DNA of 64,000 nucleotides, taken from positions 62,001 through 126,000 of the forward strand of contig NC_007949.1 in the NCBI RefSeq assembly GCF_000013865.1, written 5' to 3'. The notes beneath the pieces were generated by a model. The model was given only the letters and a program-made list of their open reading frames with translations, did no database searches and was not told the origin of the DNA. This stretch comes from Polaromonas sp. JS666. Its GTDB lineage: Bacteria; Pseudomonadota; Gammaproteobacteria; Burkholderiales; Burkholderiaceae_C. Below, one piece after another: positions 18,475 through 55,207 of this stretch. Both the position numbers and the translations under genes were made by a program. How positions within the stretch are numbered: the first letter of the stretch is position 1; the number at the start of each line of letters is the position of its first letter.

Positions 18475-18483
18475 CGAGCGACC

Positions 18484-41039: not shown

Positions 41040-41216
41040 CCCAGCCTTAGAATTTATTCACTTTTGGCGCAGTCCAAATTTGCCGGTCAGTTGGGTAACA
41101 CCAGCCAGTGCCAGCCTTACACCACGGCCTCCTTGCGGGGTCGAAACATCGTCAATGCCCAGCAGGGGACTACGTCCTGAGGGCGTATTCCTATGGGCCT
41201 CACCACGGGAACCTCA
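41040..41216 (+). promoter_or_regulatory. Structured leader, divergent family member L2
   Basis: A TAGAAT -10 at about 41048 is followed by a CCAAATTTGCCGGTCAGTTGG stretch reminiscent of other leaders, shortened here to CCAAATTTGCCGG. The three-part element near 41164-41193 is AGGGGACTAC, GTCC-TGA-GGGC and GTATTCCT. Pairing is weaker than in the other copies. Confidence 0.45.
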
Positions 41217-41587
41217 TGACCTTCAATATCAAATCAAGCATCAAGCAATTGGTGCGCACTTTCGCCATGTTTGTGACTCTGGCCGCTGCTTTGACTTGCT
41301 CCATGCATGCCACTGCCAACCAGGACGATCAACAGGCAACTCAGTCCCTGCAGGTGTTCTTTGTCTCTGCCATTTTGCAACGTGCCGATGACGCGACCAC
41401 GATGAAGCTTGTCCATGGTGTGCAGAGTGCACCGACAAGCGCAGAGGCAGAACTGTCGTTTGTGAAGCTGATCAAAAGTGACTTTCCAGGCTATTCGGTA
41501 TTCACCATGCTCACCTCCTCGGCGAATTCATTCAAGCCAGCAGCCTACGGAAAAAAGGGAAAGAAGTCACTCGCGGTCAGCATCTGA
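41217..41587 (+). CDS. Secreted or periplasmic unknown protein
   Basis: From the ATG at 41217 (MTFNIKSSIKQL) the protein has a signal peptide (LVRTFAMFVTLAAALTCSMHATA, landmarks FAMFVTLAAALTCS and ATA) and a mature part of about 90 residues ending KKGKKSLAVSI. No family recognised. It is the first of the run of leader-controlled small genes. Confidence 0.55.
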
Positions 41588-41612
41588 ATGCAGGTCCAGC
41601 CGGCCGCCTGGG

Positions 41613-41765
41613 TTGACGATCCTCAGGAAGTCTGTTTAAATTAATTCGCTTTCGGACATTCCGAATTCGCTGACACATGTCAGCCTTCAACAACCCCCGA
41701 CGGGAACCAAGGTTCCCATGGGGGAAATCTCTTGGAACTCGTCAATCCCTTTAATGGAGATTGAA
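41613..41765 (+). promoter_or_regulatory. Structured leader, family member L3
   Basis: The promoter TTGACG (41613) - 17 nt - TTAAAT (41636) is followed by the hairpin GCTGAC-ACAT-GTCAGC (41669-41684). CTTCAACAACCCCCGAC then leads to GGGAACC (41702) and TTCCC-ATG-GGGAA. AATCTC (41726-41731) can pair with GAGATT (41757-41762), which holds the ribosome site. Confidence 0.75.
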
Positions 41766-42062
41766 ATGAAGAGCCAAGCAGTTTATGAAACCAAGTACAA
41801 CGCTTTTTCTGCCCACGTGGACTTCCTCGTGTTGGCCATGTCGGAAGAAGCTGGCACCACTGTCAACAGTGCTGCTAAGGCTGGTGGCGAAGATGGCGTG
41901 CAAGCGCTGTTTGATGCCGTCATGGATGCCGGTCACCGCATGGTGCTGGTGAAAGCTCTCAATTCGCCCGCCATTTCTGGATGGGTGCGTGAGAGGCTGG
42001 AAGTGTTCTTGTACGGTCAGCACAAGCAGCAACCACTGCTGTTCAAGCGGACCTACCACTGA
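41766..42062 (+). CDS. Unknown 98-residue protein under leader L3
   Basis: The ATG at 41766 has GGAG 7 nt upstream; the ATG at 41718 lies inside the leader hairpin and is not a good start. The product (MKSQAVYETKYNAFSAHVDF onwards) is helical with a hydrophobic core; no family recognised. After its stop, 42063-42300 has only very short frames. Confidence 0.6.
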   Translation: MKSQAVYETKYNAFSAHVDFLVLAMSEEAGTTVNSAAKAGGEDGVQALFDAVMDAGHRMVLVKALNSPAISGWVRERLEVFLYGQHKQQPLLFKRTYH

Positions 42063-42295
42063 CCAATGGAGAATGGCTGGAAATATGCCATGGCGAGGAA
42101 AGCTCACGCTATCCGCAGAGAAATCTGCACTCGTTGAAAGCCACTGACTACGGTGGCAATTTCATCCTGATCAAGCCCACAAGGCTTGGTCAGACCCTTT
42201 TCCAAGAGGCAGCGCACGCTGCATCTTCAACGAAGCGCCGCCGCAACTGAGGTTGCCGTGTGGCACCGTGCAGACACCAAGCCTGTGACGCCTTT

Positions 42296-42357
42296 AGCAC
42301 CCCCGGGGACTCAACCCCGAGGGGCGGGGTCTCCAAAAAATCAGGAGAAAAAGACCC
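42296..42357 (+). promoter_or_regulatory. Structured leader, family member L4
   Basis: GGGGACTC (42305) pairs with GGTCTCC (42328-42334) around CCC-CGAG-GGG. The same GGGTCTCC can pair with GGAG and GACCC just before the ATG, hiding the ribosome site. No clear first hairpin or promoter was found here. Confidence 0.65.
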
Positions 42358-42663
42358 ATGCAAATCATCCTTACTGTTCCGCTGATTGTTGAGACAGTCC
42401 TGCAGGGAAAACTGGAGTTGCTGCCCGTGCACATGACATCTCGCCCGAGCACCAGTCCGGCAAAGAGGAGCGCATTCTTGAAGCCGCAAGGCCAGTGCAT
42501 TCCGCTTGCCCCCAAGGAGGTCGAGCGCTGCAAAGCCTACATGCTTAAGCATGAAACCGAGGCATTGAGCGAAGATGCCTCCACCGCCTTCACGATCGAC
42601 GGGAATGCGCTGCAGGAATGCCAGCCAGACGTCATGGACGTTGATCACCAGCCGGAGGATTGA
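42358..42663 (+). CDS. Unknown 101-residue protein under leader L4
   Basis: AGGAGAAAAAG precedes the ATG. The protein starts MQIILTVPLIVETVLQGKLE and ends acidic (DVMDVDHQPED). The first 20 residues are hydrophobic but look like a folded strand and helix, not a signal. It lies 4 bp before the next gene, so both share the leader. Confidence 0.55.
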   Translation: MQIILTVPLIVETVLQGKLELLPVHMTSRPSTSPAKRSAFLKPQGQCIPLAPKEVERCKAYMLKHETEALSEDASTAFTIDGNALQECQPDVMDVDHQPED

Positions 42664-42667
42664 GCTC

Positions 42668-43039
42668 ATGGCCACAATCCAACAGACTGTGAGTACAGCG
42701 CAAGAGTACCGATCCAAGCTTGTCTGCGGGGACTGGATCAGGGACCAGAGCAAGCGCTATCAGGCCTTCACCAGCGGGCAGCGCTGGAACGGCTGGGAGT
42801 GCCCTTACTTCGTCTTTGAAGTGGCAAAGCAGCTTGCCCAGGACATGCCGGGCCTGCAATACGACCCCGAAACCGATGAGTTTGTGAGGGAGGACCACAG
42901 TGGCCCTGAATACGAAAGCCTTGAGCGGTTCTCCCCATCAGTGATCGACATCGATGGCGTGCCTACCAAGGTCTATGCGATTGGCGCCTGGTCCTGGTGC
43001 TGGGCGCCATTCGATGAAACGATGGCGGCCGCTACTTGA
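42668..43039 (+). CDS. Unknown 123-residue protein
   Basis: The ATG at 42668 follows GGATTGAGCTC. The product (MATIQQTVSTAQEYRSKL onwards) is rich in aromatic residues (YQAFTSGQRWNGWECPYFVF and AIGAWSWCWAPF). It is coupled to the gene at 42358. A terminator follows, so these two genes form one unit. No family recognised. Confidence 0.6.
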   Translation: MATIQQTVSTAQEYRSKLVCGDWIRDQSKRYQAFTSGQRWNGWECPYFVFEVAKQLAQDMPGLQYDPETDEFVREDHSGPEYESLERFSPSVIDIDGVPTKVYAIGAWSWCWAPFDETMAAAT

Positions 43040-43052
43040 TCGGCGATAAATG

Positions 43053-43087
43053 GTGAGCCTCTTCCCGCAAGGGTGGAGGCTTTTCCT
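43053..43087 (+). terminator. Probable terminator
   Basis: The hairpin AGCCTC-TTCCC-GCAA-GGGTG-GAGGCT is followed by a short T run. Confidence 0.7.
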
Positions 43088-43107
43088 ATTTCTGGGCTTA
43101 GATGAAC

Positions 43108-43272
43108 TTGGCATGCAGCACCAGAGCAGCTAGAATAAATCCGTCTTTGGCCTCGCGCCATTTTCGTCGTCCATGTGACGACCTTCATCTCATTGGCCAT
43201 AAACGGCCGTACCTCACGGGAACCAAGCTTCCCGCAGGGCAGTGTGGTTCCCATTTCTTTTGGAGAAACCAC
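43108..43272 (+). promoter_or_regulatory. Structured leader, family member L5 (clearest copy)
   Basis: The promoter is TTGGCA (43108) - 17 nt - TAGAAT (43131), then the hairpin GTCGTC-CATGT-GACGAC (43166-43182). GGGAACC (43218) pairs with GGTTCCC (43246-43252) around CCC-GCA-GGG. GTGGTT (43244-43249) can instead pair with AACCAC next to the ATG, and the two pairings overlap. Confidence 0.8.
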
Positions 43273-43674
43273 ATGAAAACCAGCACCGCGCCCTTGCAAA
43301 AACCCATTGCAGACGTGTTCCCCTTCGCCTTGCATGAGACCAGCGATGTGCTCGGCAAACCGATGGCCGGATTCGTTCACCAGGGCGTAGTGATCCACGA
43401 CCCCACGGTGACAGAATGCGGCCGGTTTGCTGCCACCCCTGACCTCTACGGGATGACAGATGCGCAAGTGCTTGCCCTGGAGCGTCTGAACTCCACGCTT
43501 GATGAAGCAACGGAAGCGGCCATCAACGCCGGCGCTAACGTGATTCAAAAGGACCTGGGAATCACCACTGGTGATACCGCGGGGACCTATTTCACCGGTG
43601 AAAGTCAGGAGAATATCGCGCGCGTGTTTCTTCGCTACGCGCTTACCGAGATTGCACTCCTGCAGGCTGCATAA
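43273..43674 (+). CDS. Unknown 133-residue protein under leader L5
   Basis: TGGAGAAACC precedes the ATG at 43273. The product starts MKTSTAPLQKPIADVFPFAL and is soluble, with one conserved-looking HQGVVIHDPTVTECGRFAAT block. Upstream in-frame codons lie inside the leader and are not used. The next leader hairpin overlaps its stop codon. Confidence 0.6.
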   Translation: MKTSTAPLQKPIADVFPFALHETSDVLGKPMAGFVHQGVVIHDPTVTECGRFAATPDLYGMTDAQVLALERLNSTLDEATEAAINAGANVIQKDLGITTGDTAGTYFTGESQENIARVFLRYALTEIALLQAA

Positions 43675-43759
43675 GCAGCCAGTCGACTGCAACCAATTAA
43701 CCCCGGATGGGCACCACGCCCTGATGGGGCAGTGCCCTCCAAAAACTGGAGATTTTCAA
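43665..43759 (+). promoter_or_regulatory. Structured leader, family member L6
   Basis: The hairpin GGCTGC-ATAA-GCAGCC (43665-43680) overlaps the previous stop codon. GGGCACC (43709) pairs with GTGCCC (43732-43737) around CCC-TGAT-GGG. CTCC (43737-43740) can pair with the GGAG ribosome site. No promoter of its own was seen, so it may sit within the L5 transcript. Confidence 0.7.
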
Positions 43760-44467
43760 ATGAACTCTGTGCAAACAACACAGGCCCAAACTGCTCCCGC
43801 CAGCTCTTCTCTTGAGCAGCTGCAAGTTCTGGGTTTCACGGATGAGCTCGACTACCAGCAACACCAGAAAGTGATGCAGGCAAGCCAGGAGCTGGCAGCG
43901 CAGCAGTTGGCCACGATGGTTACTGAGGGCGAAAGCCCCAGCAGTGACGCGTTCGTGATCAATGCTGACCTTAACGACCGCTATGCCGATGTCATCATTG
44001 GTGACCGAGCTGAAGCTTACGATGCCATTGAGATTCAAGGTGTACGAAACCTCAATGAGGAAGGCGACCCGATGGGAACCTGCATCGAGGTGGACACCGA
44101 GAATCCGCAGTTCTATTCCGTGTACGTCCGGATCAAGAGCGGCGGGGCCGAATGCGTTGGCGATATGGGAACTCATGCACTGGCGCAGGCCTATGCCAAT
44201 GAACTCCATGTCAAATATGGCTGGCCAGTCAACGACTTCACACTGAAGCGACAACATCAAGCCTTGAACATGATTGTCAAAGTGCGACTGGGTTTCCAAT
44301 CCGCATACGCGTGCATCAAGACCGATACAACGAATCTGGACGTTCGCCTTTCGCCAGGAAAGTCTGCCAAGACATCTCTCGGTGAAACAGTGAAAGAAAT
44401 GCGCGAGAAGGCCGAAAGCATCCTCAAGCGTGCCGACCTGATCGAAGCTGCAGCACAGCAGCTGTAG
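43760..44467 (+). CDS. Unknown 235-residue protein under leader L6
   Basis: From the ATG at 43760 (MNSVQTTQAQTAPASSSLEQL) the protein runs 235 residues and is acidic in the middle. It includes DLNDRYADVIIGDRAEAYDAI and YSVYVRIKSGGAECVGDMGT, with a helical C-terminus. No family recognised. Frames upstream of 43760 fall in the leader. Confidence 0.6.
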   Translation: MNSVQTTQAQTAPASSSLEQLQVLGFTDELDYQQHQKVMQASQELAAQQLATMVTEGESPSSDAFVINADLNDRYADVIIGDRAEAYDAIEIQGVRNLNEEGDPMGTCIEVDTENPQFYSVYVRIKSGGAECVGDMGTHALAQAYANELHVKYGWPVNDFTLKRQHQALNMIVKVRLGFQSAYACIKTDTTNLDVRLSPGKSAKTSLGETVKEMREKAESILKRADLIEAAAQQL

Positions 44468-44477
44468 AACCTGAACC

Positions 44478-44568
44478 AATTCCCCGGCTTACGCGGAATT
44501 TGAAAACCCTGACGGGCACCAATAGCCCGAACGGGTAGGGTGTCCGTCCTTTTTGAAGGATGTGAATC
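44478..44568 (+). promoter_or_regulatory. Structured leader, family member L7
   Basis: A first hairpin AATTCC/GGAATT (44478-44500) precedes GGGCACC (44514), which pairs with GGTGTCC (44539-44545) around CCC-GAAC-GGG. TCCTT can pair with AAGGA, the ribosome site of the TTG start. Confidence 0.7.
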
Positions 44569-44808
44569 TTGTCTACCCAACGTGTACTCGCGGGCGAAAA
44601 ACGACAGCGCTTCTTTGGCCATCTCCGTGCGACAGAAGTCTTGCCCGTCCACCACCTGGTCCGCATATCGCGGTCAAGTGCAAACTACAAGCCATCCGTG
44701 CGCGCAGCAGCCTTGCGGCAGCTAGTTGCACGGGCGCCAATCGAAGTAACCCAAGGGCGCCCGTTCCCAGAACGGCGACGCCTCGTCAGAGCCCATTACG
44801 GGATCTGA
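44569..44808 (+). CDS. Unknown basic 79-residue protein under leader L7
   Basis: The start is a TTG (44569) 7 nt after AAGGATG. The product MSTQRVLAGEKRQRFFGHLR onwards is Arg-rich throughout. The leader position and ribosome site support translation from this weak start codon. No family recognised. Confidence 0.5.
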   Translation: MSTQRVLAGEKRQRFFGHLRATEVLPVHHLVRISRSSANYKPSVRAAALRQLVARAPIEVTQGRPFPERRRLVRAHYGI

Positions 44809-44810
44809 AA

Positions 44811-44876
44811 TCAACCACCCGGAGGGCGCTGCCCAGCTGGGTCGGTGCTCTCCAATCAACAGGAGATGGAAAAATT
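44811..44876 (+). promoter_or_regulatory. Structured leader, family member L8
   Basis: GGAGGGCGC (44821-44829) pairs over nine bases with GTGCTCTCC (44845-44853) around CCC-AGCT-GGG. TCTCC (44849-44853) can instead pair with GGAGA, the ribosome site, so the pairings exclude each other. Confidence 0.7.
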
Positions 44877-45170
44877 GTGAAAAACGAAAAGGCCACACGA
44901 TTCCTCAAGTTCGTTTTGTTCGTCGCTGCAGCGACCATATCAATGCTGTGGGCAGGCTTTGTCGTCTCCCAGTTATGGAAATGGTTCTTTGTCCCGATGG
45001 GATGGCGCTCAATGACCGCAGTCCAGGGAACTGGGCTGTACATCATTGGGCAAATACTCAATAGCCAAAGAAGTGAACTGATGCCAGCTGACTGGAAGCG
45101 CTGGATCTACGCTATAGGAGTGCCAATTGCAGGACTCATCATCGGATGGGCGATCAAGTCGATTGCCTAG
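44877..45170 (+). CDS. Small membrane protein under leader L8
   Basis: The start is a GTG (44877) after AGGAGATGG. The 97-residue protein has two membrane segments (FLKFVLFVAAATISMLWAGF and WIYAIGVPIAGLIIGWAI) and a short amphipathic middle (WFFVPMGWRSM). No family recognised. A terminator follows. Confidence 0.6.
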   Translation: MKNEKATRFLKFVLFVAAATISMLWAGFVVSQLWKWFFVPMGWRSMTAVQGTGLYIIGQILNSQRSELMPADWKRWIYAIGVPIAGLIIGWAIKSIA

Positions 45171-45207
45171 CCGGCGCAAACCGCAACTCGGTACTGTCAT
45201 AACCACC

Positions 45208-45247
45208 AAGCCCTGTGCTCGTCCTCGTGACAGCCAGGGCTTTTTTC
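45208..45247 (+). terminator. Rho-independent terminator
   Basis: The stem AAGCCCTG / CAGGGCTT ends in six T. Confidence 0.85.
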
Positions 45248-45293
45248 ATGGGCGTCTGGTTTCCTATTTGAACCTCACCCCGATCACGATAGC

Positions 45294-45475
45294 CTGACAG
45301 CAGGACCAAAAATGGCTAGAATTCAGATACTTTAGCCGCGCGCTAATTTGCTGGTCGAGTGCCAGCCATTCAACTGACCACCAGCTGGTCACAACCAATC
45401 AACTGCCCAGGGCGAACACCGCCCACAAGGGTACGTTCATCTTCCTTGGGCTCAATTCAAACGGAGTCAAGGAAA
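45294..45475 (+). promoter_or_regulatory. Structured leader, family member L9
   Basis: The promoter is CTGACA (45294) - 17 nt - TAGAAT (45317), followed by GCTGG/CCAGC (45350-45366). GGGCGAAC (45410) pairs through GAAC with GTTC (45435) around CCC-ACAA-GGG, and CCCAGG pairs with CCTTGGG further out. TTCCTTG (45442-45448) can pair with CAAGGAA, the ribosome site. Confidence 0.75.
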
Positions 45476-45670
45476 ATGAGCAAAAAACAAAAGCGTGTTA
45501 GCAAAAAGTCCATGCCGAAGGGATCGTCCCAAACTGAGCTGGCTCTTAACGCGCTCTTGGCCGGACTGGAAGATCTTGGTTTCGGGACGGATAAAGAGAT
45601 CAACGGCGCTGATGCCGTGGATGCCATCGCTGAGTTGTATGAAGATGTGACTCAGCGTATTCTTGGCTGA
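45476..45670 (+). CDS. Unknown 64-residue protein under leader L9
   Basis: From the ATG at 45476 the product is MSKKQKRVSKKSMPKGSSQT, then an acidic C-terminal half (EINGADAVDAIAELYEDV). The basic N-terminus and acidic end suggest a small regulator or adaptor; this is a guess. The ribosome site AAGGAA is 5 nt upstream. Confidence 0.6.
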   Translation: MSKKQKRVSKKSMPKGSSQTELALNALLAGLEDLGFGTDKEINGADAVDAIAELYEDVTQRILG

Positions 45671-45747
45671 CTTTCGCCATGTTCTTTGGCTTAAGTAGTG
45701 GCCCGAGGTGAATCGCTCTGGCTTGGTCGCCTACCGCGATCAATCGG

Positions 45748-45842
45748 CTGTCACTTCTTGGCAGTCAATCTAAAAAAACAACCCTGATGGGCACCAATTG
45801 CTCTCCAGGGCAGGTGCCTGTTCTTTTTGAAAGGATAGGAAA
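45748..45842 (+). promoter_or_regulatory. Structured leader, family member L10
   Basis: A short hairpin CTGTC/GGCAG precedes GGGCACC (45789), which pairs with GGTGCCT (45813-45819) around GCTC-TCCA-GGGC. CCTGTTC can pair with GAAAGG, the ribosome site. Confidence 0.65.
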
Positions 45843-46070
45843 ATGGCCAAAAGACGCAGAAAGTCGTCTCGGATGGCGAATCTCATCATTCGCATCAACA
45901 GTATTGCCAACGGTATGGCACAGTCCGGGCCAAAAAGCCCGGTCTTCATTGTGAAAAACAAGAAAATAATCAAACTCAAGCGAAATGAGTACGACCGTTT
46001 AGTGGAGGAAGCCGACTCGCTTTCCTACTTTGCCGGCTACCAGATCCGTCCAGAGCAACTCATCAAATAG
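45843..46070 (+). CDS. Unknown basic 75-residue protein under leader L10
   Basis: GAAAGGATAGGA precedes the ATG. The product starts MAKRRRKSSRMANLIIRINS, carries KNKKIIKLKRNEYDRLVEEA and ends near YFAGYQIRPEQLIK. It may bind nucleic acid. No family recognised. Confidence 0.6.
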   Translation: MAKRRRKSSRMANLIIRINSIANGMAQSGPKSPVFIVKNKKIIKLKRNEYDRLVEEADSLSYFAGYQIRPEQLIK

Positions 46071-46080
46071 CAACCAGTGA

Positions 46081-46168
46081 TGCCGGTCCAAACGCAGTTT
46101 GTCGGCACAACTTAACAACCCGGACGGGCACCTTTGACGACATGTGGCTCGAGTGTTGGGAGAGCCGC
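46081..46168 (+). promoter_or_regulatory. Possible degenerate leader L11
   Basis: TGCCGG and CGGCA could form the first hairpin, and AACAACCCGGACGGGCACC is like other copies up to the first arm. The later parts do not fit the pattern. It could be a decayed member. Confidence 0.35.
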
Positions 46169-46453
46169 ATGAACCTAGATTTCAACCGCCTGCTGCAGGG
46201 GAATGCCACGTCCAGGCAGCGCCCGAAAGTGGGCGCGTCGGCATGCATTCTCCCTACGTCGCACCGATCGCCACTTCAGGCATCCCACAAAAAACGACAG
46301 GCTGTGATTGAGGATGAACAAGGGCTTCGCTCCATTGTGTCCCACCACATGGATCGCGTGTCCAAGGATGCCGGAACACGTCAATACAAGTGCAAGGACA
46401 GCTGCGGCACCGGCCAGCCTGCCGGGGCGCCCGTAGCGGCCCCTGACAGCTGA
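46169..46453 (+). CDS. Unknown small protein
   Basis: GGGAGAGCC precedes the ATG at 46169. The frame encodes about 94 residues (MNLDFNRLLQGNATSRQRP onwards) of low complexity that look unlike a folded protein. The opposite strand is also open here. It is included because of the ribosome site and the leader-like sequence upstream. Confidence 0.35.
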   Translation: MNLDFNRLLQGNATSRQRPKVGASACILPTSHRSPLQASHKKRQAVIEDEQGLRSIVSHHMDRVSKDAGTRQYKCKDSCGTGQPAGAPVAAPDS

Positions 46454-46472
46454 CCACACGCACTAATTCTGG

Positions 46473-46823
46473 TCAGCCCTTTTTAACGAGCGACAAGCCT
46501 GAGCGTTGTGGGATAACTTCCCGGTTGAAGGCCTCCAGCTGCTCTGGAGTAGGCGAGTGGCCATACTTTTCGACATAGGCCAGCCTGCGTTTGTCCGCGG
46601 GGAAGTTCGCCTGGCCATCCGGGCCAAATTTGATGCGCTGGGTGTTCTGCGCGAACACTTCACCGACGGTCTCGGTATCTTCGGCGCGGTGCATCGCTGA
46701 TCCGAGGTCGCACATGGCATTGAATTCGTCGACGGTGCGCGGCCGCCACGGTGCCCGTGTCATGGCCTGGAATTGCTGCCACTCGGAATCGGACATTGTG
46801 ACCAGGTGATCGATAACCAACAT
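46473..46823 (-). CDS. Unknown 116-residue protein on the minus strand
   Basis: GCAAGGAGC precedes the ATG at 46823. The product (MLVIDHLVTMSDSEWQQFQ onwards) is helical and acidic with WRPRTVDEFNAMCDLGSAMH. It lies opposite in direction to its neighbours and is divergent from the helix-turn-helix gene at 46959. A CCGGCA/TGCCGG hairpin stands upstream of the ribosome site. Confidence 0.6.
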   Translation of the reverse strand: MLVIDHLVTMSDSEWQQFQAMTRAPWRPRTVDEFNAMCDLGSAMHRAEDTETVGEVFAQNTQRIKFGPDGQANFPADKRRLAYVEKYGHSPTPEQLEAFNREVIPQRSGLSLVKKG

Positions 46824-47339: not shown

Positions 47340-47396
47340 CTTGCTCATTGCGGCCACGGCCCCGCCACTTTGACATTCTCCCCGCCCTACGACTGA

Positions 47397-47539
47397 TAAA
47401 ATGAAAGCGTTCTTGGCCTCGGCCATTTTCGCCGTCCGTGTGACGGCCATCAACACACCGGCCCTTCGCGGCCAACACCCAACGGGAACCATTTTTCCCG
47501 ATTGGGGCATGTGGTTCCCATTACTTTTTGGAGAACTAC
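47397..47539 (+). promoter_or_regulatory. Structured leader, family member L12
   Basis: Upstream sequence aligns with L5 from the -10 (TAAAAT, 47397) to the hairpin GCCGTC-CGTGT-GACGGC (47431). GGGAACC (47485) pairs with GGTTCCC around CCC-GATT-GGG. GTGGTT can instead pair with AACTAC next to the ATG. A TTGACA lies at 47369 but its distance to the -10 is long. Confidence 0.75.
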
Positions 47540-47602
47540 ATGAAACTCATAACCACAGACGAGGATGGTTTGCACAAGCAGACTATCCGTGGCCATGGAT
47601 GA
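47540..47602 (+). CDS. 20-codon ORF directly after leader L12
   Basis: The ATG stands 6 nt after TTGGAGAA at exactly the position where other leaders start their genes. The frame (MKLITTDEDGLHKQTIRGHG) stops after 20 codons and overlaps the next frame. It may be a leader peptide or the 5' part of a frameshifted gene. Confidence 0.4.
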   Translation: MKLITTDEDGLHKQTIRGHG

Positions 47603-47729: not shown

Positions 47730-47730
47730 C

Positions 47731-47814
47731 GCGGTATAAACCGCATCACTACAACCCCAATGGGAGCTCATCTTCCATTGGGGGAGGTGGGCTCCACAAT
47801 ATCGGAGTCAATTC
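47731..47814 (+). promoter_or_regulatory. Structured leader, family member L15
   Basis: The hairpin GCGG-TATAAA-CCGC (47731-47744) is followed by ACAACCCCAAT. GGAGC (47763) pairs with GCTCC (47791) around CC-ATT-GG. GGCTCC can instead pair with GGAGTC, which is the ribosome site; the two share GCTCC. Confidence 0.7.
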
Positions 47815-48603
47815 ATGACAGAAAGTACAAATCACATGGCGCACATCGTGGTAGTCCAGTTCCTGGTTGAGCACGTCGAAGGTGAAGTGGCGACTGAAAC
47901 CATCAATCGCAAACTTCGCACTGTCGTCTCCCCAATTGGCAGCGGTGAAGATGAAGGATCGCCTTTGCTGGATTTCAAGATCGCCGGCGCTGTGCCGGCC
48001 GACGAGAAGACCACGCTGGCGGTTGCGAACCAGTCCTACCGAGAGTGGGAAGTGTTCAACGACGGCAAAGATACTGATCACTACCTGGTGGTGATTGAGG
48101 GCGATGTCTCACCGGTGGTGAGCGGGCGTTACGAGTCCGATCCCAAGCGGGTCCAGGCGGCGCAGGCCTACCGCACCAAACACGGCAACGACGATGGTCT
48201 CTACCGCCTCGATGTACCCAAGGGCACGCCTGTGGCGCTGGGGGCGTTCGCTGGGGCTGAAGTCGAAGGCGGCGAAGTGGATGAGTTAACGAACTTTGTG
48301 GTCAGCGAGATTCTGGAAGGGCGCTGCCCCATCGAGCGCATCAATGTGCCCGGCAGCAAATACTTCACGGTGCTCATTGCCGGCGATGAGCTGGTGGTGG
48401 ACAAAGTCCTCCTGGCGGCGCTTGAGGAGCGGTTCTCCAACGAGTTGGTTGAGTTTTCCAACGGGGTGTCGGACTTCATCCTCCCCAGTGGAAACGTCGA
48501 AAGCGCCATGCAGATTCAGTGGGCCGAAAACACTGCAGCAGGGCACTCCAACCTGTCCCTTGAACAGTGGAAGAAGAAGCATCTGAAAGGGGCCTACAAA
48601 TAG
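47815..48603 (+). CDS. Unknown 262-residue protein under leader L15
   Basis: CGGAGTC precedes the ATG. The protein starts MTESTNHMAHIVVVQFLVEH and has several strand-rich blocks (YLVVIEGDVSPVVSGRYES, VPGSKYFTVLIAGDELVV). It ends in a Lys-rich helix (EQWKKKHLKGAYK). No family recognised. A strong terminator follows. Confidence 0.65.
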   Translation: MTESTNHMAHIVVVQFLVEHVEGEVATETINRKLRTVVSPIGSGEDEGSPLLDFKIAGAVPADEKTTLAVANQSYREWEVFNDGKDTDHYLVVIEGDVSPVVSGRYESDPKRVQAAQAYRTKHGNDDGLYRLDVPKGTPVALGAFAGAEVEGGEVDELTNFVVSEILEGRCPIERINVPGSKYFTVLIAGDELVVDKVLLAALEERFSNELVEFSNGVSDFILPSGNVESAMQIQWAENTAAGHSNLSLEQWKKKHLKGAYK

Positions 48604-48972: not shown

Positions 48973-49385
48973 GGAGCTCTCCTATCTGAAATCCGGGCAA
49001 GACGCCCCTTCTGTGTTCTGGTCAGAAAACACACAAAGGACGCCTCGCACGGCTCGCCAGGAGGCCCATGCTGCCGATTTCTCGGCACGGCGATTGGAGA
49101 GCTCCCCCTATGCCCTGAAACCAAGGACAGAGAAAACGTCTAAAGCGCCGAGAAGCCGCTGACTACATCCAAGGATGCAGCCGCCAATACACCGGGTTAG
49201 CGGTGCCGATTGGATATACCGAAGTAACACCAACCATTGGTAAATGCGTACACAAGGTACGCGAATGGTCACAGGGACCAAACGAGCTTTCAGTGTATTC
49301 GATTTCAGGGGAAAAATCGACCTCGAAGCTGTTTGCGGCTGGCTGCCGAAGCCTAAAAGTTAGGCACGTTTCAGCAGGAGGAACT

Positions 49386-49781
49386 ATGACGCTCACTGCA
49401 GCTGCCCAGGCGATCACAGGATTTCTAAAAGTAGCCGGCCTCAGCATTCACAGTCAGTTTGTCCGGTGCACCGCGGAAGCCAGATCCCGAATGCCCCATG
49501 TCCGATCGGGCAGCGATGCAGTTCGGGCTGGTGGTTATGAGGACGGAATCACCATTGGTGGCGGAGATGGTGATCGAGCGTCGCTACGTCGTTCGCGGTT
49601 TAAAAACACATCGCTGTTGTTAAAATGGCTGCACTTTGGCTCCGTCCAATTTGCTGGTCATCTGCCAGCCTTTTTGAAGACCACTCGCTGGTCAAAAAAC
49701 ATCAACTGCCCAGGGCGAACATCGCCCAACCGGGCACGTTCACTTACCTTGGGCTTCATCAACTGGAGTAATGGAAAGTGA
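49386..49781 (+). CDS. Uncertain ORF, possibly frameshifted, ending inside leader L13
   Basis: A strong ribosome site (AGGAGGAAC) precedes the ATG at 49386, and the first ~35 residues (MTLTAAAQAITGFLKVAGLS) look protein-like. The frame then runs through the promoter and leader of the next gene, which is unlikely for a real C-terminus. Another frame, 49498-49623 (MSDRAAMQFGLVVMRTESPL onwards), looks better after about codon 37. A single-base change may have broken a ~80-residue gene. Confidence 0.35.
   Translation: MTLTAAAQAITGFLKVAGLSIHSQFVRCTAEARSRMPHVRSGSDAVRAGGYEDGITIGGGDGDRASLRRSRFKNTSLLLKWLHFGSVQFAGHLPAFLKTTRWSKNINCPGRTSPNRARSLTLGFINWSNGK
49621..49777 (+). promoter_or_regulatory. Structured leader, family member L13
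   Basis: After TAAAAT (49621) comes the hairpin GCTGG/CCAGC (49653). GGGCGAAC (49713) pairs through GAAC with GTTC (49738-49741) around GCCC-AACC-GGGC. TTCACTT (49739-49745) can instead pair with AAGTGAA (49775-49781), which contains the GTG start. Confidence 0.75.
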
Positions 49782-50053
49782 ACAATCAAGAATGGAAACC
49801 TGAGTACTCAAAGTGGAGACACGGCGGCTGGTATGTCCATAACGTGCAGTACCCCAGCGGTGCATGTGGATGTGTGAGCAACAATTTCCCTGACAAACAG
49901 TGGCGAATCGTCTGCGATGAGCGTCGCAAGGAGTTGGGGGAGAGCGGGGACTTTACGTTTGAGACCCGCGATCTTGCTGCCCGCGCAGAGCTGGAACTCG
50001 CAAGTGCCCTGGCTGCAAAAGAAGTGAGTTCCGCAACGGCAGCTAGCCAATAG
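49778..50053 (+). CDS. Unknown 91-residue protein under leader L13
   Basis: The GTG start (49778) follows GGAGTAATGG. The product has a WRHGGWYVHNVQYPSGACGC block and CDERRKEL, then an Ala-rich helix. Two Cys close together might bind metal. The pattern recalls small proteins of plasmid accessory regions, but I cannot name a family. Confidence 0.6.
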   Translation: MNNQEWKPEYSKWRHGGWYVHNVQYPSGACGCVSNNFPDKQWRIVCDERRKELGESGDFTFETRDLAARAELELASALAAKEVSSATAASQ

Positions 50054-50181
50054 CGAAACCCCTAACAAAGCCTCATAACCGGCGCATTGGTATGGGGCTG
50101 CCTTTGGCCTTCAGCTCGTGGCGTGAAAACGTACTTGCAGTTGTTAAAGGCGCAATCGAAGAGTTCTAACTAGGACTCTGT

Positions 50182-50286
50182 CTCAACGACGTGTTCCGTC
50201 GTTGAGAAAACATTATTCAACCCACGCGGGGCACACCACCCCGCAGGGGATCGGTGCGTTCTCGCGATTTCAAAAGAGAGATCACG
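50182..50286 (+). promoter_or_regulatory. Structured leader, family member L16
   Basis: The first hairpin is CTCAACGAC-GTGTTCC-GTCGTTGAG (nine base pairs, 50182-50206). GGGGCAC (50228) pairs with GTGC (50254) around CCCC-GCA-GGGG. TTCTC can pair with GAGAG at the ribosome site. A clear -10 at the usual distance was not found. Confidence 0.7.
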
Positions 50287-52047
50287 ATGGACAGGCAGTT
50301 CTATCCAACGCCCAAAGCACTGGGCAGAAAACTATGGGCCAAATTCAAGAACCGTGAATTCCGCCGAGTACTGGAACCCAGTGCCGGCAACGGGGACTTG
50401 GCCAAAGCCGCACCATGGGATGCAGAGCGCTATACGAGCCGCTGCCCCATTGACTGCTGCGAAATCGACATCACCAAACACGGCCGACTGCGCGAGCTGG
50501 GGCTGAACGTGGTGGGTACAGACTTCATGGAGTTCGGAAGTGCTGCGATCTATTCACACGTGATCCTCAACCCACCATTCTTGAACGGTGCAGAGCACGT
50601 CCTCAAAGCATGGGACTTGCTCTGGAATGGAGAGATCGGCGCGATCATCAATGCCGAGAGCTTGCGGAACCCATTCTCTGTCCAGCGAAGACAGCTTCTG
50701 CGCCTGATTCACCAGTATGGTGAGGTCGAGTTTGTGGAAAACGCCTTCATGGTTGAAGATGCCGAGCGTAAAACGCCGGTCGATATAGCGCTGGTTTACC
50801 TCTGCAAAAAAGCAGACACGCAGGCAGAAATATTCGGAACATTGCTCGATGATCTGGCGGCCGACAGGCAAACAGCAGAAAGCTTGGCCGGGGGTTACCA
50901 GAAGGCGCAGGAGGTAATGCTCCCAAACAACTTCATCGAGAACAGCGTGCTGGCTTTCGATGCAGCCGTTATTGCGATGCGGCAAGCTGTAGTGACAATG
51001 GCAAAGGCCAACCATTACGAAGCCTATTTGGGCAGAACGATGGCGGAACTCAACGGGGGCGGGAAGGAAATTCCACCAGATACAAGCGTCAAGTTTGTCC
51101 AGGAAGAAATTGGCATGCGCTATGAAAAGCTCAAGGACAAGGCTTGGACGCTGATTCTGCGATCTTCAAACGTCACGTCAAAGCTGTCATCTGCAGCCCA
51201 AAAGCGCGTTGAAAGCGACTTCAAAGACATTGCAAAACTGGAGTTTACGGTTAAGAATATCTATGGCTTCCTTTGCGGAATCCTGGACAACGCGGGTGCG
51301 ATCCAGTTGGGCATGATGTGCGATGTCTTTGACACCATCAGTCGGTATCACGAAGAAAACACTGTTTTCTATCGGGGTTGGAAATCGAACACCAAGCACC
51401 GAACGTGCGGCATGCGTTTGAAGACCACCCGGTTCATACTGCCCGGGTTCAAGACATCCTCTTTCCGGGGTAGTTTGGAATGGGACTCGGAACGCCTGCT
51501 GGCGGACTTCGACAAGGTCTTCAGCATGATCGATGGCAAATCAGCGCCGGAAGTCAGCCTGGTCAGTGTGTTCAATACGCACTACAACGATCTGGCAAGA
51601 GGCGGGAAACGTGTGAGCAGCAGCTACTTTGACGTTCGCCTGTATCCAGGCGTTGGCACCATCCATTTCTACCCTCGTAGCAAGGAACTGATGGATCGAC
51701 TGAACCGCATGGTTGGCAAGGAACGGGCCTGGCTCCCACCTGATGTGAATCAGGCGGGGCCGGGATTCTGGGCCCAGTACGAAAAGGCGGAAAAATTCGA
51801 TGCCGAACTTCGGCAGGAAGTGCGAAAAAATGGTGGCGCAAGCTACTACCGAGACCACTTCTCAACGCTGTTCTACAGCGGTGCGGATTCCAAGGAAGCG
51901 CTACGGGCGCAGGATGCCATCGATGCGGCAGCAGCTCGTGTTCATGAGCGCCATGGAATCGACATTGATGCGATGATCGAGGTGAAGCCTTCTGACACGC
52001 TGTTGCTTGAAGCAACGAATGTTGGAGAGTTTGAACAAGCTGCGTGA
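50287..52047 (+). CDS. DUF4942-type protein with N-terminal DNA methyltransferase domain
   Basis: The start is the ATG at 50287 (MDRQFYPTPKALGRKLW); an earlier in-frame ATG at 50254 lies in the leader. The first ~190 residues form an SAM-dependent methyltransferase: RRVLEPSAGNGDLAKA as motif I and HVILNPPFLNG as the catalytic NPPF motif, indicating N6-adenine or N4-cytosine methylation. The remaining ~395 residues resemble the DUF4942 region of plasmid and integrative-element proteins. Methylation of plasmid DNA could protect it from restriction on entry. The shared leader suggests co-regulation with the small genes. Confidence 0.8.
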   Translation: MDRQFYPTPKALGRKLWAKFKNREFRRVLEPSAGNGDLAKAAPWDAERYTSRCPIDCCEIDITKHGRLRELGLNVVGTDFMEFGSAAIYSHVILNPPFLNGAEHVLKAWDLLWNGEIGAIINAESLRNPFSVQRRQLLRLIHQYGEVEFVENAFMVEDAERKTPVDIALVYLCKKADTQAEIFGTLLDDLAADRQTAESLAGGYQKAQEVMLPNNFIENSVLAFDAAVIAMRQAVVTMAKANHYEAYLGRTMAELNGGGKEIPPDTSVKFVQEEIGMRYEKLKDKAWTLILRSSNVTSKLSSAAQKRVESDFKDIAKLEFTVKNIYGFLCGILDNAGAIQLGMMCDVFDTISRYHEENTVFYRGWKSNTKHRTCGMRLKTTRFILPGFKTSSFRGSLEWDSERLLADFDKVFSMIDGKSAPEVSLVSVFNTHYNDLARGGKRVSSSYFDVRLYPGVGTIHFYPRSKELMDRLNRMVGKERAWLPPDVNQAGPGFWAQYEKAEKFDAELRQEVRKNGGASYYRDHFSTLFYSGADSKEALRAQDAIDAAAARVHERHGIDIDAMIEVKPSDTLLLEATNVGEFEQAA

Positions 52048-52065
52048 CTCTGGCAATCACTTAAA

Positions 52066-52100
52066 CATTTGGGCCACTCCTTCGGGGGTGGCCTTTTTTG
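52066..52100 (+). terminator. Rho-independent terminator
   Basis: The stem GGCCACTCC-TTC-GGGGGTGGCC is followed by six T. Confidence 0.9.
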
Positions 52101-52108
52101 TTGCCTGT

Positions 52109-52297
52109 ATGGATCTGCAGGCAAAAAAAGGCGATACAAAACCTGACGATCATGAGCAATCGAAGCGATTCGAGAAATCTGCACGTGAGCTTGAGGCTGA
52201 TGAGACTGGCGCAGTGTTCACGCGGGCGCTCGAACGGGTAGCTGCGCCCGGCAAGTGTACGCAGAGCACTAAGCCCGCCCGAAAGGCTACCGAATAG
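52109..52297 (+). CDS. Unknown 62-residue protein
   Basis: The frame MDLQAKKGDTKPDDHEQSKR onwards has a protein-like composition (FEKSARELEADETGAVFTRA). It starts just after the terminator without a clear ribosome site, so it may be the 3' part of an older gene. It overlaps the end of the convergent DUF3800 gene by 11 bp. Confidence 0.4.
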   Translation: MDLQAKKGDTKPDDHEQSKRFEKSARELEADETGAVFTRALERVAAPGKCTQSTKPARKATE

Positions 52298-53237
52298 TTA
52301 TCTTGCTCTTGGCGATCTTCTTCCACAAACGGCGAAGTCCGAGTCGCTCCAACAGCTGCTTCAAGATTCTCAGGTAACGGGCTCGGCGAGCCATCGCTTC
52401 AAACGCAGGGACCACCCTCTCAGGCGGTAGGCCTGTGATCAATTTAGCGACCGAATGCTCGATCGACCTGTCTCTAACTTCTTGTAAACCAGGAACTTTT
52501 GAGAATTTCACTGCCCACGAGGCCACTAACTCGCGCGGCATTTCCATGTATCGATGACGGAACCTAATTGCATTGGCGACATCCATGTGCCGCTTCTCAT
52601 AGTGGGGCTCGGAAACTCTGCGCACATGCCATGCGAGCATGTCTGCTGCCTGCAATGGCAGCACGTCATCGTCGCTTCTAAATATCGGAGGCCCGCCTAG
52701 GGTCGATGCTAGAAGCGGGTCCGAGTGTTTAAGGGGGGTGTACCAAAGTGCCGACAACGGGCCGACATTGCCTTGAATGTCAAAGATCAGGTCTACCGGC
52801 CCCTTCAACCCTTCTGCTTCCAGCGCCTTTGCCACCCCATAGAGGACGCCCACAAAACAAGGAAAGTAGGGATGCCTAAGGTCGTAAGGAACGGCATCCC
52901 TTAACAGTTCTTTGTAGTCCCTGCTGCTAACTGAGCATTCGATTGATATCGGCTTGTACTTTGCAAGGACTGCCGCCAACGCATCGATCTTCCCTTCGCG
53001 CTCTTCCTTGGTAAACCCGCCGAAGTCGGTCATATGCAATGACTTCAGCGCAGGGGCCGCAGCGAGTACAGCCGCCCATTCATCCGAGAATGAAGACCAT
53101 GCTTCGGCAGTTTGTATGTAGCCCGCAAGCACGAGGCGCTTGTCTGACCGCTTGTCGCTTCCAGAGTCGTCTATGTAGGCCTGAAGCACCACCAGATCCT
53201 TTCTGGCGCGCCGTTCAGCTGCATACCCGGAAACCAA
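52287..53237 (-). CDS. DUF3800-family protein
   Basis: The protein has the family marks: LQAYIDDSGSDKRS near the start, LVLAGYIQTAEAW, and DDDVLPLQAADMLAWHVRR near residue 210. The conserved acidic residues give an RNase H-like fold, but biochemical roles are not established. The start is a TTG at 53237 or a GTG about 45 bp inside. DUF3800 genes are common in mobile and defence-rich regions. Confidence 0.8.
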   Translation of the reverse strand: MVSGYAAERRARKDLVVLQAYIDDSGSDKRSDKRLVLAGYIQTAEAWSSFSDEWAAVLAAAPALKSLHMTDFGGFTKEEREGKIDALAAVLAKYKPISIECSVSSRDYKELLRDAVPYDLRHPYFPCFVGVLYGVAKALEAEGLKGPVDLIFDIQGNVGPLSALWYTPLKHSDPLLASTLGGPPIFRSDDDVLPLQAADMLAWHVRRVSEPHYEKRHMDVANAIRFRHRYMEMPRELVASWAVKFSKVPGLQEVRDRSIEHSVAKLITGLPPERVVPAFEAMARRARYLRILKQLLERLGLRRLWKKIAKSKITIR

Positions 53238-53313
53238 TGCATCGATGCCTTTGCGCTACCGTAGGGGCATTCATCTTACGCCACTGCTCCCCGCTTTGGG
53301 ACGGCAAACATCG

Positions 53314-53358
53314 CAAAAAAAAAGCCCTGGTCTGCTTTTTTGGCAGTCCAGGGCTTTT
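53314..53358. terminator. Bidirectional terminator
   Basis: The stem GCCCTGG / CCAGGGC has an A run on its left and T run on its right. It would end the leftward 53371-55084 unit with eight T or more on the minus strand. Confidence 0.85.
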
Positions 53359-53370
53359 CGGTTTCAAGGG

Positions 53371-53673
53371 TCAGTGGCAGCGCAGGCGCTTGAAGCGCTC
53401 GACGACATCAGCCACAGCTGTATCGACGTCGTCGTAAGGGACGGTACCGTCGTCAGCAATCTTTCGTTGTGCATACAGGCCCACGTGGACGTGGACGCCG
53501 CCTTTCTGGCCAGTTGCCCCATCTGGATAGGACACCAGCGCCTGCAGGTAGCGTTCGCCGCCGGCCAGATCCTGGGTCAGGAAGAACCGGCCACGGTTGT
53601 CACTGCCACGGTGCTGCTTGCTTGGTTCAAGCCCATGCTTGCTTGCCAAGGCGTTGATTTCACACTGGTGCAT
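53371..53673 (-). CDS. Unknown 100-residue protein
   Basis: The start at 53673 overlaps the end of the preceding gene by 14 bp, so they are coupled. The product starts MHQCEINALASKHGLEPSKQ and includes RFFLTQDLAGGERYLQALVS and GGVHVHVGLY. No family recognised. It ends just before the bidirectional terminator. Confidence 0.6.
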   Translation of the reverse strand: MHQCEINALASKHGLEPSKQHRGSDNRGRFFLTQDLAGGERYLQALVSYPDGATGQKGGVHVHVGLYAQRKIADDGTVPYDDVDTAVADVVERFKRLRCH

Positions 53674-55084
53674 TGCGTTCTCCTTTGCCTTGGCTCAAGG
53701 GGTCAGATGCGTATTCGCGCCCATCCGCCATGTACAGGGTGACTTGTAAAGAGCCTTCCGTTTTGCTCAAGTCTGCCCGGTGAGGGCCTTCAAAAGCAAC
53801 AGGGTTCAACAGGTCCAGCTCGAAGGCCTCGGCCGACAGTTCAATGCGGTCCCCGTTCTGAATGCCCAACACCATGGGATGATCCATTTTGAGACTCCCG
53901 AACAGCGGGACGTTATATTGGCGCCGACCTTCTGCCTTTGGAGCAGGGTGGGTGAACTGCAGGGTTTCGACCTTGCCTTTCAAAAAGGTCAGCGTGTCGA
54001 AACATATTGCCGTCCCATCCGGCCCGATCGCCATCATGCTCGGGCTTCGAGATTGTCCATAGCGCTGAGCAAGGTCAGCCAACTCCTGATTGAACTGGTC
54101 TGCGTTCTCGCACTTGACGTGCATGACGTCCTGTTCGGCGTAGGTCAGGCATTCAAGTGATGTGGGGTTGACCCACAGACCAAAAAACCAGTCATCTTGC
54201 CAGGTGGAATAGCGTACCCAACCGGCGGCACGCTTCACCAGATCCTGCACAGATGCAGTTGAACCGTTTTCGATAAACCAGCGCTTGACGCTGGCACCAC
54301 TGGCCTTTCGCTCCAGGGGGGCGTTCGGTCTGTGTTCATCCAGCAAGCGGTAGGCTTCTTGCATCCTGCGCACCTGCTCATCGTTCACTGGCATGCCGGG
54401 GCGTGCCCACCAATACAGATCGCCGCCAACCTTGGTTAGGGCCCGGTCAGTTGCAGAAGCGTCCAGTTCGCTGATTCGCATGGTACCCAGACGGGCATCA
54501 AGCGACTCAGCGTAGTAGCCCGCCAGGTTGCGAACGACGCCTTGCGAGTTATTTTCGTACACATCGCAAAACGTGTAGTCATTGCCTTCATGTTTGGTGA
54601 GAACCGCAAGGCACTCATCCGGTCCAATCAGAACGAAACCCGTGTTCTGAGCGAAGCGCAGCCGCTCGCGCAGATCTGCATCACTCAGAGTCGTGGATGG
54701 GTGTACTTCTTCGTAGTAGAGATGCACCTGGTGCAGGGCAAGTACCTTGCCAGCGTGCGTCCTGATGCTTTGTCCCTTCGTCTTGATCGCGCCGGCCTTT
54801 GCATACACAAGGGCGCAGCGCTCAAAGTCGGTCACTCCTGCAAAGTGTTGTTCAGGGCCTGTCAGGCAATCTTCCAAGAACACATCCAGGTATGCGGCGC
54901 CATAGCCGCGGTGTGGGGTGTCCTTCAGCACTGATTCAGCCATTGGCACCAGGACGGTGTCAAAATTGATTTCGGTTGGAACGATCTCGCGCTTGCTCAA
55001 CCGGCTGGCGGCCAGGAAGTTTGCATCCACGTCATGGCCGCAATCGAGAACAGATCCAATGGGGAAAGTAGGTGTGAGTTCCAT
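53660..55084 (-). CDS. Unknown 474-residue protein under leader L14
   Basis: An earlier in-frame ATG exists at 55165, but the codons 55085-55165 lie inside the leader RNA, so the start is the ATG at 55084 (MELTPTFPIGSVLDCGHDVD). The protein is soluble, mixed alpha/beta, with GFVLIGPDECLAVLTKHEG and MMAIGPDGTAICFDTLTFLK. It has no recognised domain. It is the only leftward gene in the leader-controlled set and forms an operon with 53371-53673. Confidence 0.65.
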   Translation of the reverse strand: MELTPTFPIGSVLDCGHDVDANFLAASRLSKREIVPTEINFDTVLVPMAESVLKDTPHRGYGAAYLDVFLEDCLTGPEQHFAGVTDFERCALVYAKAGAIKTKGQSIRTHAGKVLALHQVHLYYEEVHPSTTLSDADLRERLRFAQNTGFVLIGPDECLAVLTKHEGNDYTFCDVYENNSQGVVRNLAGYYAESLDARLGTMRISELDASATDRALTKVGGDLYWWARPGMPVNDEQVRRMQEAYRLLDEHRPNAPLERKASGASVKRWFIENGSTASVQDLVKRAAGWVRYSTWQDDWFFGLWVNPTSLECLTYAEQDVMHVKCENADQFNQELADLAQRYGQSRSPSMMAIGPDGTAICFDTLTFLKGKVETLQFTHPAPKAEGRRQYNVPLFGSLKMDHPMVLGIQNGDRIELSAEAFELDLLNPVAFEGPHRADLSKTEGSLQVTLYMADGREYASDPLSQGKGERNAPV

Positions 55085-55207
55085 AAAGTCTTTCAAAATG
55101 AAAAACGGGAACCCACTATCCCCTACGGAAGTGAATTCCCGTAAGGAGAGGTTGAAGGCTGACATAAAGCCAGCGGTACAGGCTAGGCCAGTAACGCCTA
55201 AATTATA
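55085..55207 (-). promoter_or_regulatory. Structured leader, family member L14 (minus strand)
   Basis: On the minus strand TATAAT (55207-55202) is followed after 33 nt by GCTGGC-TTTAT-GTCAGC (55174-55158). GGGAATTC (55140-55133) pairs with GGGTTCCC (55114-55107) around CC-GTA-GG. GTTTTTC can pair with GAAAGAC at the ribosome site. Confidence 0.75.

Follow-up and report, generated by a model that had tools for sequence, protein, structure and literature searches.

Why should one plasmid carry the same structured leader, its pairings kept while its letters change, in front of one unrelated gene after another, and what might such a leader do? The question arises from a window of 64,000 nucleotides (nt) of Polaromonas sp. 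JS666, by which we mean the whole stretch analysed, corresponding to bases 62001-126000 of a 360,405-bp plasmid replicon. The genome comprises 5.9 Mb in three contigs and also includes a second plasmid-size replicon of 338,007 bp and a 5.2-Mb chromosome. A preliminary description of the window had proposed about fifteen structured leaders repeated before plasmid genes, and this proposal holds: 14 of the 16 candidates parsed are supported, 13 by a structure descriptor and one (55082-55150, minus strand) by a covariance model, and two are doubtful. We regard the leaders as probably a family of cis-acting, bistable translational attenuators of conjugative plasmids and integrative and conjugative elements (ICEs) with a MOBH relaxase.

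The 14 supported leaders share one layout, which reads 5′ to 3′ as C1 (CCC), mostly 2-5 nt, G1 or arm 1 (GGGnACC and variants), a loop, C2 (CCC), 1-6 nt, G2 (GGG), arm 3 (GGTnCCC and variants), a spacer, the Shine-Dalgarno (SD) sequence and the AUG, the core of ~65 nt lying immediately 5′ of the start codon. Two arrangements of these blocks compete: P3, a two-part hairpin CCC-x-GGG..CCC-x-GGG, can form together with P4, a hairpin enclosing SD and AUG, and an alternative helix between arm 1 and arm 3 excludes both. The preliminary description had recognised arm 1 pairing with arm 3 around a small CCC-GGG hairpin; this pairing is real, but it is one of two folds, and P3 with P4 is predicted to dominate in the full-length leader. 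The closed fold hiding SD and AUG lay beyond that first view, as did the spread to MOBH elements and the published case upstream of bet in SXT.

The layout is scarce in control sequence. The structure descriptor gave 32 matches on the 360-kb replicon, a few of which look doubtful, and 5 on the 338-kb replicon, versus 1 and 0 in the reversed sequences, and an anchor scan that did not require the alternative helix yielded 37 anchors (several being minus-strand mirror images) versus 0 in four reversed scans. A covariance model, R1, built from an eight-row alignment of copies, was run on 820 kb of sequence from this genome and from related plasmids and returned 45 matches at E ≤ 0.06. Its matches (alignment A6) were used to build a second model, R2, which with filters off recovered 12 of the 14 supported window leaders at E ≤ 0.01. 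When the best 150 of 1045 candidates in the Polaromonas genome were scored, R2 at E ≤ 0.05 gave 30 matches, 21 on the 360-kb and 9 on the 338-kb replicon, and none on the 5.2-Mb chromosome.

The covariation score of P3 was 0.250 versus 0.080 after shuffling in A6 and 0.251 versus 0.103 in A8, an alignment of later matches, both alignments having been fitted to the structure, which biases them in favour of covariation. In neither did any of 500 shuffles reach the observed percentage paired, the cells changed on both sides or the covariation score; pairs changed on both sides were reached by 14/500 (A6) and 5/500 (A8) shuffles, and further pair types by 51/500 and 39/500. An open reading frame (ORF) of at least 35 aa started within 12 nt of the model end in 145 of 150 aligned matches, some of which are one locus fetched twice, and exactly there in 130, with ATG in 139. 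Together with the P3 covariation, this placement supports the earlier picture of structured, covarying leaders directly before start codons, many to a plasmid.

The two folds were then compared by energy. RNAfold predicted P3 plus P4 for most of the 16 parsed leaders, with arm 3 covering the SD and often the AUG. The main tests used the 138 distinct sequences located among the 150 aligned, 128-133 of which had a placeable GGG arm, SD word or helix. When true partners were replaced by those of other leaders, 0 of 5000 permutations matched the duplex energies of arm 1:arm 3 and of arm 3:SD-AUG (37 anchors), nor did any of 2000 permutations within genome groups (133 leaders, 25 of them from small sources and pooled as one mixed group; z -18.1 and -15.2, respectively). 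The arm 1:arm 3 test likewise gave 0/2000 in a separate set of 44 leaders from 27 other loci, kept of 54 later matches after removal of 6 repeats of the first set, 42 having a placeable helix.

The preferred fold is predicted to change with RNA length. At equilibrium, the full-length leader adopted P3 (state A) in 110/128 cases, and mean SD openness was 0.15 in state A versus 0.42 for leaders in the arm 1:arm 3 fold (state B). RNA ending 4 nt past arm 3 preferred state B in 111/128, RNA extended to AUG+12 was dominated by P3 in 110/128, and 93/128 leaders switched between the two lengths. After exchange of 3′ tails between leaders, P3 dominated in only 60-75 of 133, suggesting that each leader has an SD/AUG strand fitted to its own switch. 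The separate set behaved similarly (early B 33/42, late P3 39/42, 18-23/42 with tails swapped). In the IncA plasmid pRA1, 12/14 copies end closed and all 14 pass via B, and the copies tested from the IncHI1 plasmid R27 end closed in 5/5 cases. In the predicted folds, the permutations and the length flip thus reveal the mutually exclusive SD sequestor and antisequestor by which translational riboswitches are recognised; the pairings, their exclusivity and the flip are here the outcome of computation.

On this basis, the leader would work as follows. In the closed state A, C1:G2 and G1:C2 would form P3 while arm 3 pairs with SD and AUG in P4, keeping ribosomes off; in the open state B, arm 1 would pair with arm 3, C2:G2 would form a mini-hairpin, and SD and AUG would be freed. 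During transcription, B would be favoured until the SD/AUG strand emerges, followed by rewiring to A. Translation would be low by default and possible on nascent RNA or when a putative factor holds the leader in B. The only conserved parts that could form an aptamer are the small P3 and the nearly G-free CAACCC flank. The 5′ flank of C1 is rich in U, almost devoid of G and ends in CAA (positions -3 to -1; of 137 sequences, 91% have A at -1, 77% A at -2 and 65% C at -3), and it may be a binding site; the putative factor would perhaps act there or on P3.

The copies in the window are the following.
23710..23767, plus strand: core leader of the gene at 23765, with P3 CCCATTGGG/CCCAATGGG and P4 GATGTG..CACATC over SD and AUG (descriptor, R2 E 0.01, fold)
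41692..41768, plus strand: core leader of a 98-aa ORF with ATG at 41766; GGTTCCC lies inside P3 (descriptor, R2 E 3e-6)
42297..42360, plus strand: core leader of the gene at 42358 (descriptor, R2 E 0.0028)
43208..43275, plus strand: core leader of the gene at 43273, arm 1 GGGAACC and arm 3 GGTTCCC (descriptor, R2 E 2e-9)
43699..43762, plus strand: core leader of a frame with ATG at 43760, 26 nt after the upstream stop codon (descriptor, R2)
44504..44571, plus strand: core leader of a 79-aa frame with TTG at 44569 (descriptor, R2 E 3.5e-12)
44815..44877, plus strand: core leader of a gene with probable GTG start at 44877, arm 1 GGAGGGCGC and arm 3 GTGCTCTCC (descriptor, R2)
45403..45478, plus strand: core leader of the gene at 45476 (descriptor; R2 weak, E 4.8)
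45779..45845, plus strand: core leader of the gene at 45843 (descriptor, R2 E 1.7e-14)
47475..47542, plus strand: core leader whose ATG at 47540 opens just a 20-codon frame overlapping the next start (ATGGATGA) (descriptor, R2; frame by eye)
47752..47817, plus strand: core leader of the gene at 47815, 15 nt after the upstream stop (descriptor, R2)
49706..49780, plus strand: core leader of the gene at 49778, GTG start (descriptor alone)
50218..50289, plus strand: core leader of a DUF4942 methyltransferase-like gene at 50287 (descriptor, R2; Pfam for the gene)
55082..55150, minus strand: core leader of the minus-strand gene 53660-55084, the sole window copy against the relaxase strand (R2 E 4.5e-6)
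41156..41218, plus strand: doubtful, degenerate copy (by eye; matched by neither descriptor nor model)
46116..46171, plus strand: doubtful copy lacking the second CCC..GGG pair, in which P4 GTGGCTC/GAGCCGC still covers the start (by eye and fold; matched by neither descriptor nor model)
23608..23694, plus strand: optional 5′ module with promoter-like ATGACA-N17-TAGAAT, P1 TTGGC/GCCAA and P2 GCTGG/CCAGC, then CCTTCAAC (by reading; P1 and P2 predicted by fold)

The stretch of the leader at 45403..45478 is also conserved in a plasmid of Rhodoferax ferrireducens (87.6% identity). The frame at 47540-47602 behind one leader may be a short leader peptide or a broken gene. Modules similar to the one at 23608..23694, with promoter-like boxes, P1, P2 and CCTTCAAC or alike, were seen by eye at 43100-43185, 45285-45370 and 47375-47450, and a 5′ module with promoter-like boxes also occurs in locus L014 near 7770 and 9336; leaders with this module seem to have their own promoter. 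A second 5′ module, present in 17 sequences (loci L045, L048, L055, L057, L086, L090 and L094), consists of an inverted repeat TTTCC-nAAGC...GCTTnGGAAA followed by GCnTAnTGC, a CGGnAGCTGGCCG-like hairpin and a CAGCA word, and is possibly a promoter or a single-strand DNA hairpin. Two further R2 matches in the window are probably chance (23003, E 0.026) and the mirror image of a leader (41688, minus strand, E 0.1). A leader-like conserved stretch with a layout unlike the leader family precedes a 60-aa minus-strand ORF at 48975-49165 (minus strand) and has 78.8% identity over ~110 bp to a Hydrogenophaga plasmid.

What do the leaders control? The ORFs behind them fall into 103 protein clusters, among them the DUF4942 protein of the window, a cytosine methylase, DUF6094, DUF3150 and many unknown proteins; PADLOC returned weak methyltransferase matches only, for one of ten genes. 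In pRA1, an annotated start (of bet, exo, VWA, dcm, yfbR and others) coincides with the end of 10 of 14 matches, in R27 with that of 6/6, and in IncC a match lies within 3 nt of ssb. The Simplicispira suum plasmid has 30 distinct sites in one 30-kb block and 0 in the remaining 110 kb; comparison of the tables places the end of 21 of these directly at an annotated start, and the genes behind the sites include a nuclease-like one and, by partial match, a RecT gene. The pRA1 match at 76807-76885 (E 0.0026) ends at the start of bet and thereby occupies the place of a reported regulatory element: a review describes a translational attenuator upstream of SXT bet (Garriss et al. 2013) that hinders expression of the highly transcribed bet and exo, and states that it also occurs in IncA/C plasmids, where its function had not yet been investigated (PMC4542580). 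The IncC plasmid pKAZ3 carries a stretch homologous to the pRA1 bet leader by alignment. Elsewhere in the leader-bearing block of pRA1, 26662-26698 resembles ctRNA_p42d below the threshold (29.5 bits against a cut-off of 50, E 0.011).

The distance from the upstream stop, taken from an ORF scan, was 0-40 nt in 44/134 copies and at least 120 nt in 66/134. The 44 copies lie within operons, which suggests control gene by gene. These distances also bear on translational coupling, in which a ribosome ending the upstream gene would cover C1 (CAACCC), melt P3 and free arm 1, thereby opening the next gene. Where the upstream stop is no more than 80 nt away (46 copies), it lies 7-18 nt before C1 in 25 of them, as coupling would have it; given the 66 copies with long gaps and the promoter-like modules that some copies have of their own, we nevertheless consider coupling very improbable.

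The family reaches well beyond Polaromonas. With R2 at E ≤ 0.001, 37/299 genomes of the host's family were positive, in 32/141 genera, and 20/274 genomes of its class (own family included); at E ≤ 1e-4, 10/398 genomes of the phylum were positive, one of them outside the class. These surveys scored the best 17 (family), 18 (class) and 13 (phylum) candidates per genome, so that per-genome counts are lower bounds. Matches per plasmid numbered 14 in IncA pRA1, 15 in IncC pKAZ3, 6 in IncHI1 R27, 16 in the Rhodoferax plasmid and 8 in Hydrogenophaga pBPS33-1, and R2 found none on IncT Rts1 (also typed MOBH), F, R751 and pALIDE02. The Rhodoferax plasmid also bears a type IV CRISPR (csf) locus at 11367-18625, and in R27 the copy at 179759-179820 (minus strand), before an AAA ATPase gene, has its CCC/GGG blocks in other letters with the pairing kept by eye. 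A 201-bp stretch of pRA1 comprising the bet leader and the start of bet matched 782 plasmid records, 779 of them covering at least 80%. As to a viral origin, three exact patterns had no match in IMG/VR, a weak negative given the insensitivity of exact patterns.

Associated with the family is the MOBH relaxase (PF07514). It was found in 21/23 chosen leader-positive genomes, and among the 299 family genomes in 30/37 leader-positive versus 18/262 leader-negative ones (Fisher p 3e-22), the leader and relaxase surveys being taken as covering the same genomes from their equal numbers and labels; 7/37 leader-positive genomes were without it. The leaders also keep to one strand: 140 of 141, in 38 elements, lie on the strand of the relaxase gene, counting matches at E ≤ 0.001 plus a set reaching to about E 0.0019 on contigs with a relaxase within 360 kb. 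Exceptions outside this count are the window copy at 55082 (minus strand, relaxase on plus) and the Rhodoferax plasmid, with 13/16 on the relaxase strand. Placement, MOBH link and strand bias are, like the folds, computational results.

From the geometry of the F plasmid, genes expressed from the transferred strand are expected on the relaxase strand, and the strand bias would therefore also fit hairpins that act as DNA, whether as promoters in single-stranded form or as protein sites of the strand that enters, RNA folding being a by-product. Frpo elements do form hairpins before such genes (PMC11541004), and a further conserved inverted repeat lies upstream of some of our copies. On the other hand, the core stands before gene after gene, leaving little room for a promoter in the 44 copies close behind a stop, and SD and AUG take part in the pairing. 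Promoter-like boxes in the window sit, by reading, upstream of the hairpins and not inside them; in a Frpo promoter, the -35 and -10 boxes lie within the folded single strand. In addition, G.T cells exceed A.C cells (87 vs 12 in arm 1:arm 3, 46 vs 26 in P4 and 41 vs 21 in P3); this speaks for pairing on the sense, RNA-like strand, an argument tempered by the comparable ratio (25 vs 4) in chimeric leaders. Taken together, we judge an action as DNA very improbable. Even less can be said for neutral repeats, that is, a mobile or selfish hairpin copied round the plasmid with no regulatory role: many copies per replicon would be expected of it, but the exact placement before start codons and the leader-specific pairing would not. 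Moreover, for the 10 pRA1 leaders at annotated starts, IncA and IncC share 96% identity in the cores, 79% in the 100 nt upstream and 91% in the gene starts, the core being more conserved than upstream in 10/10 pairs and than the gene start in 8/10. We give this explanation almost no credence.

Several observations count against the translational attenuator that we favour. Only one of the five R27 copies tested shows B in the short RNA, which slightly lowers our confidence in this reading; 18/128 leaders are predicted in B even at full length, as are 2/14 in pRA1 and, in pKAZ3, the copy before yfbR; the tail swap leaves roughly half of the leaders closed; and the error of the thermodynamic model may exceed the energy difference between A and B. 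No trans-acting factor or ligand came to light. The 12 ORFs listed from the 360-kb replicon or from Simplicispira as common to six of seven replicon sets include no plasmid-encoded RNA-binding regulator and encode backbone functions (relaxase, helicase, exonuclease, primase and the like), in a comparison in which no ORF occurred in all seven, the G187 and Rhodoferax sets were incomplete and the 360-kb replicon was taken without its last 405 bases. R2 misses the pKAZ3 bet leader at E ≤ 0.05, and the SXT bet attenuator would be a member of the family by its position and the review's remark. Finally, many copies from betaproteobacteria have a U-rich tract behind arm 3, with a T frequency of 0.44-0.66 at the first seven positions.

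This tract makes a transcription attenuator a rival to be taken seriously, in which the B stem and the tract would form an intrinsic terminator just before the SD, with P3 as antiterminator, and transcription would end prematurely. In the 12 nt before GGAG, T makes up 45% in 101 leaders and 27% in the 130 other ORFs of the replicon that were compared; 62/133 leaders reach 5 T or more in 8, and truncated RNA favours B at the very point where RNA polymerase would sit at the tract. A d'Aubenton-Carafa-type score is, however, passed by only 28/133, in 13 of 14 pRA1 copies a run of four T is missing from the interval that separates arm 3 from the SD, the spacers of several window copies are mixed or rich in A, and the pairing of P4 with SD and AUG would be pointless. 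The published copy, too, is described as a translational attenuator (PMC4542580). Termination therefore appears unlikely to us.

The leader precedes, one by one, a large number of unrelated genes with accessory, DNA-metabolism or methylase functions, and nearly all copies keep to one strand. If translational attenuation is the correct reading, it would tie these genes into a common post-transcriptional regulon. Gene content and strand bias suggest a link to establishment after transfer. We tentatively propose, as a conjecture that may well be wrong, that this three-strand, co-transcriptionally rewiring switch serves MOBH plasmids and ICEs throughout Pseudomonadota as a shared regulon tag. One post-transcriptional signal, most likely tied to entry into a new host or to establishment there, would then open together as many as tens of genes per element that lie on the relaxase strand and are otherwise unrelated (cargo, repair and methylase genes). 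IncA/C and IncHI1 plasmids are carriers of multidrug resistance, and for IncA/C and SXT a promoter-level map of gene regulation exists (AcaCD/SetCD; PMC4542580). If the reading is true for the DNA-metabolism block, transcript abundance would be a misleading guide to protein abundance, and many functions could answer to a single factor. The leaders, well over a hundred copies with one architecture and two states, also offer a natural set for studying the co-transcriptional rewiring of RNA.

Is any of this already known under another name? The preliminary description had been reminded of the radC RNA motif, which occurs upstream of DNA-handling genes of mobile elements. The two are not the same: the radC covariance model (RF01754, cut-off 40 bits) does not match the leaders, reaching at best 18.7 bits in the own genome, with seven weak matches that are all chromosomal, and staying below cut-off throughout seven further leader-rich genomes (best 24.1 bits); it spans 149 positions versus 67 in the leader model. 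Nor does Rfam hold another candidate, as none of 4227 families matches the window at E ≤ 1, none reaches gathering in eight leader-rich loci, and none exceeds its threshold in the pRA1 region at E ≤ 0.5; laxer E-values gave weak matches far under the cut-offs, mostly of eukaryotic families. The comparative survey that lists the radC motif for Proteobacteria also lists a Burkholderiales-1 motif without Rfam accession, and describes STAXI (RF01728), a structured element that occurs in repeats close to genes for ssb, topoisomerase, antirestriction and integrase (PMC2864571). STAXI resembles our leaders in being repeated and structured and in the kind of genes nearby, but it consists of tandem pseudoknots, and RF01728 has no match in the window (E ≤ 1), in the eight leader-rich loci (gathering) or in the pRA1 region (E ≤ 0.5). 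Among the papers listed by literature searches, including PRTRC plasmids and Polaromonas, none was recognised as describing such a leader family.

Translational riboswitches and RNA thermometers are SD-sequestering platforms with exclusive sequestor and antisequestor helices. The leaders share the exclusive SD helices of translational riboswitches, without a sizeable aptamer and with a whole element of ~65 nt. Closer in setting are EGeRS1 of pLS20-family plasmids of Bacillus, repeated structured regions of 400-600 bp before establishment genes (PMC8708921), and the single-strand DNA promoters Frpo and ssi, of which Frpo folds into hairpins before genes of the entering strand (PMC11541004). EGeRS1 and Frpo are, like the leaders, repeated and structured, and they precede establishment genes of conjugative plasmids; in the passages cited, neither is described as a 65-nt leader that closes the SD. 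The nearest parallel is the SXT attenuator, which shares with the IncA match of the leader model its position upstream of bet. In the passages cited from the review it is described for one gene pair, whereas the leader family precedes many unrelated genes, with 14 matches in IncA, 15 in IncC and 30 in Simplicispira, and has an explicit second, open state. We infer that the whole family works like the SXT bet copy and that a trigger exists. As the review reports that one attenuator, the mechanism class is already known, for one copy only; the family, its copy number, the two-state design and the MOBH and strand rules seem to be new within the reach of the literature searches.

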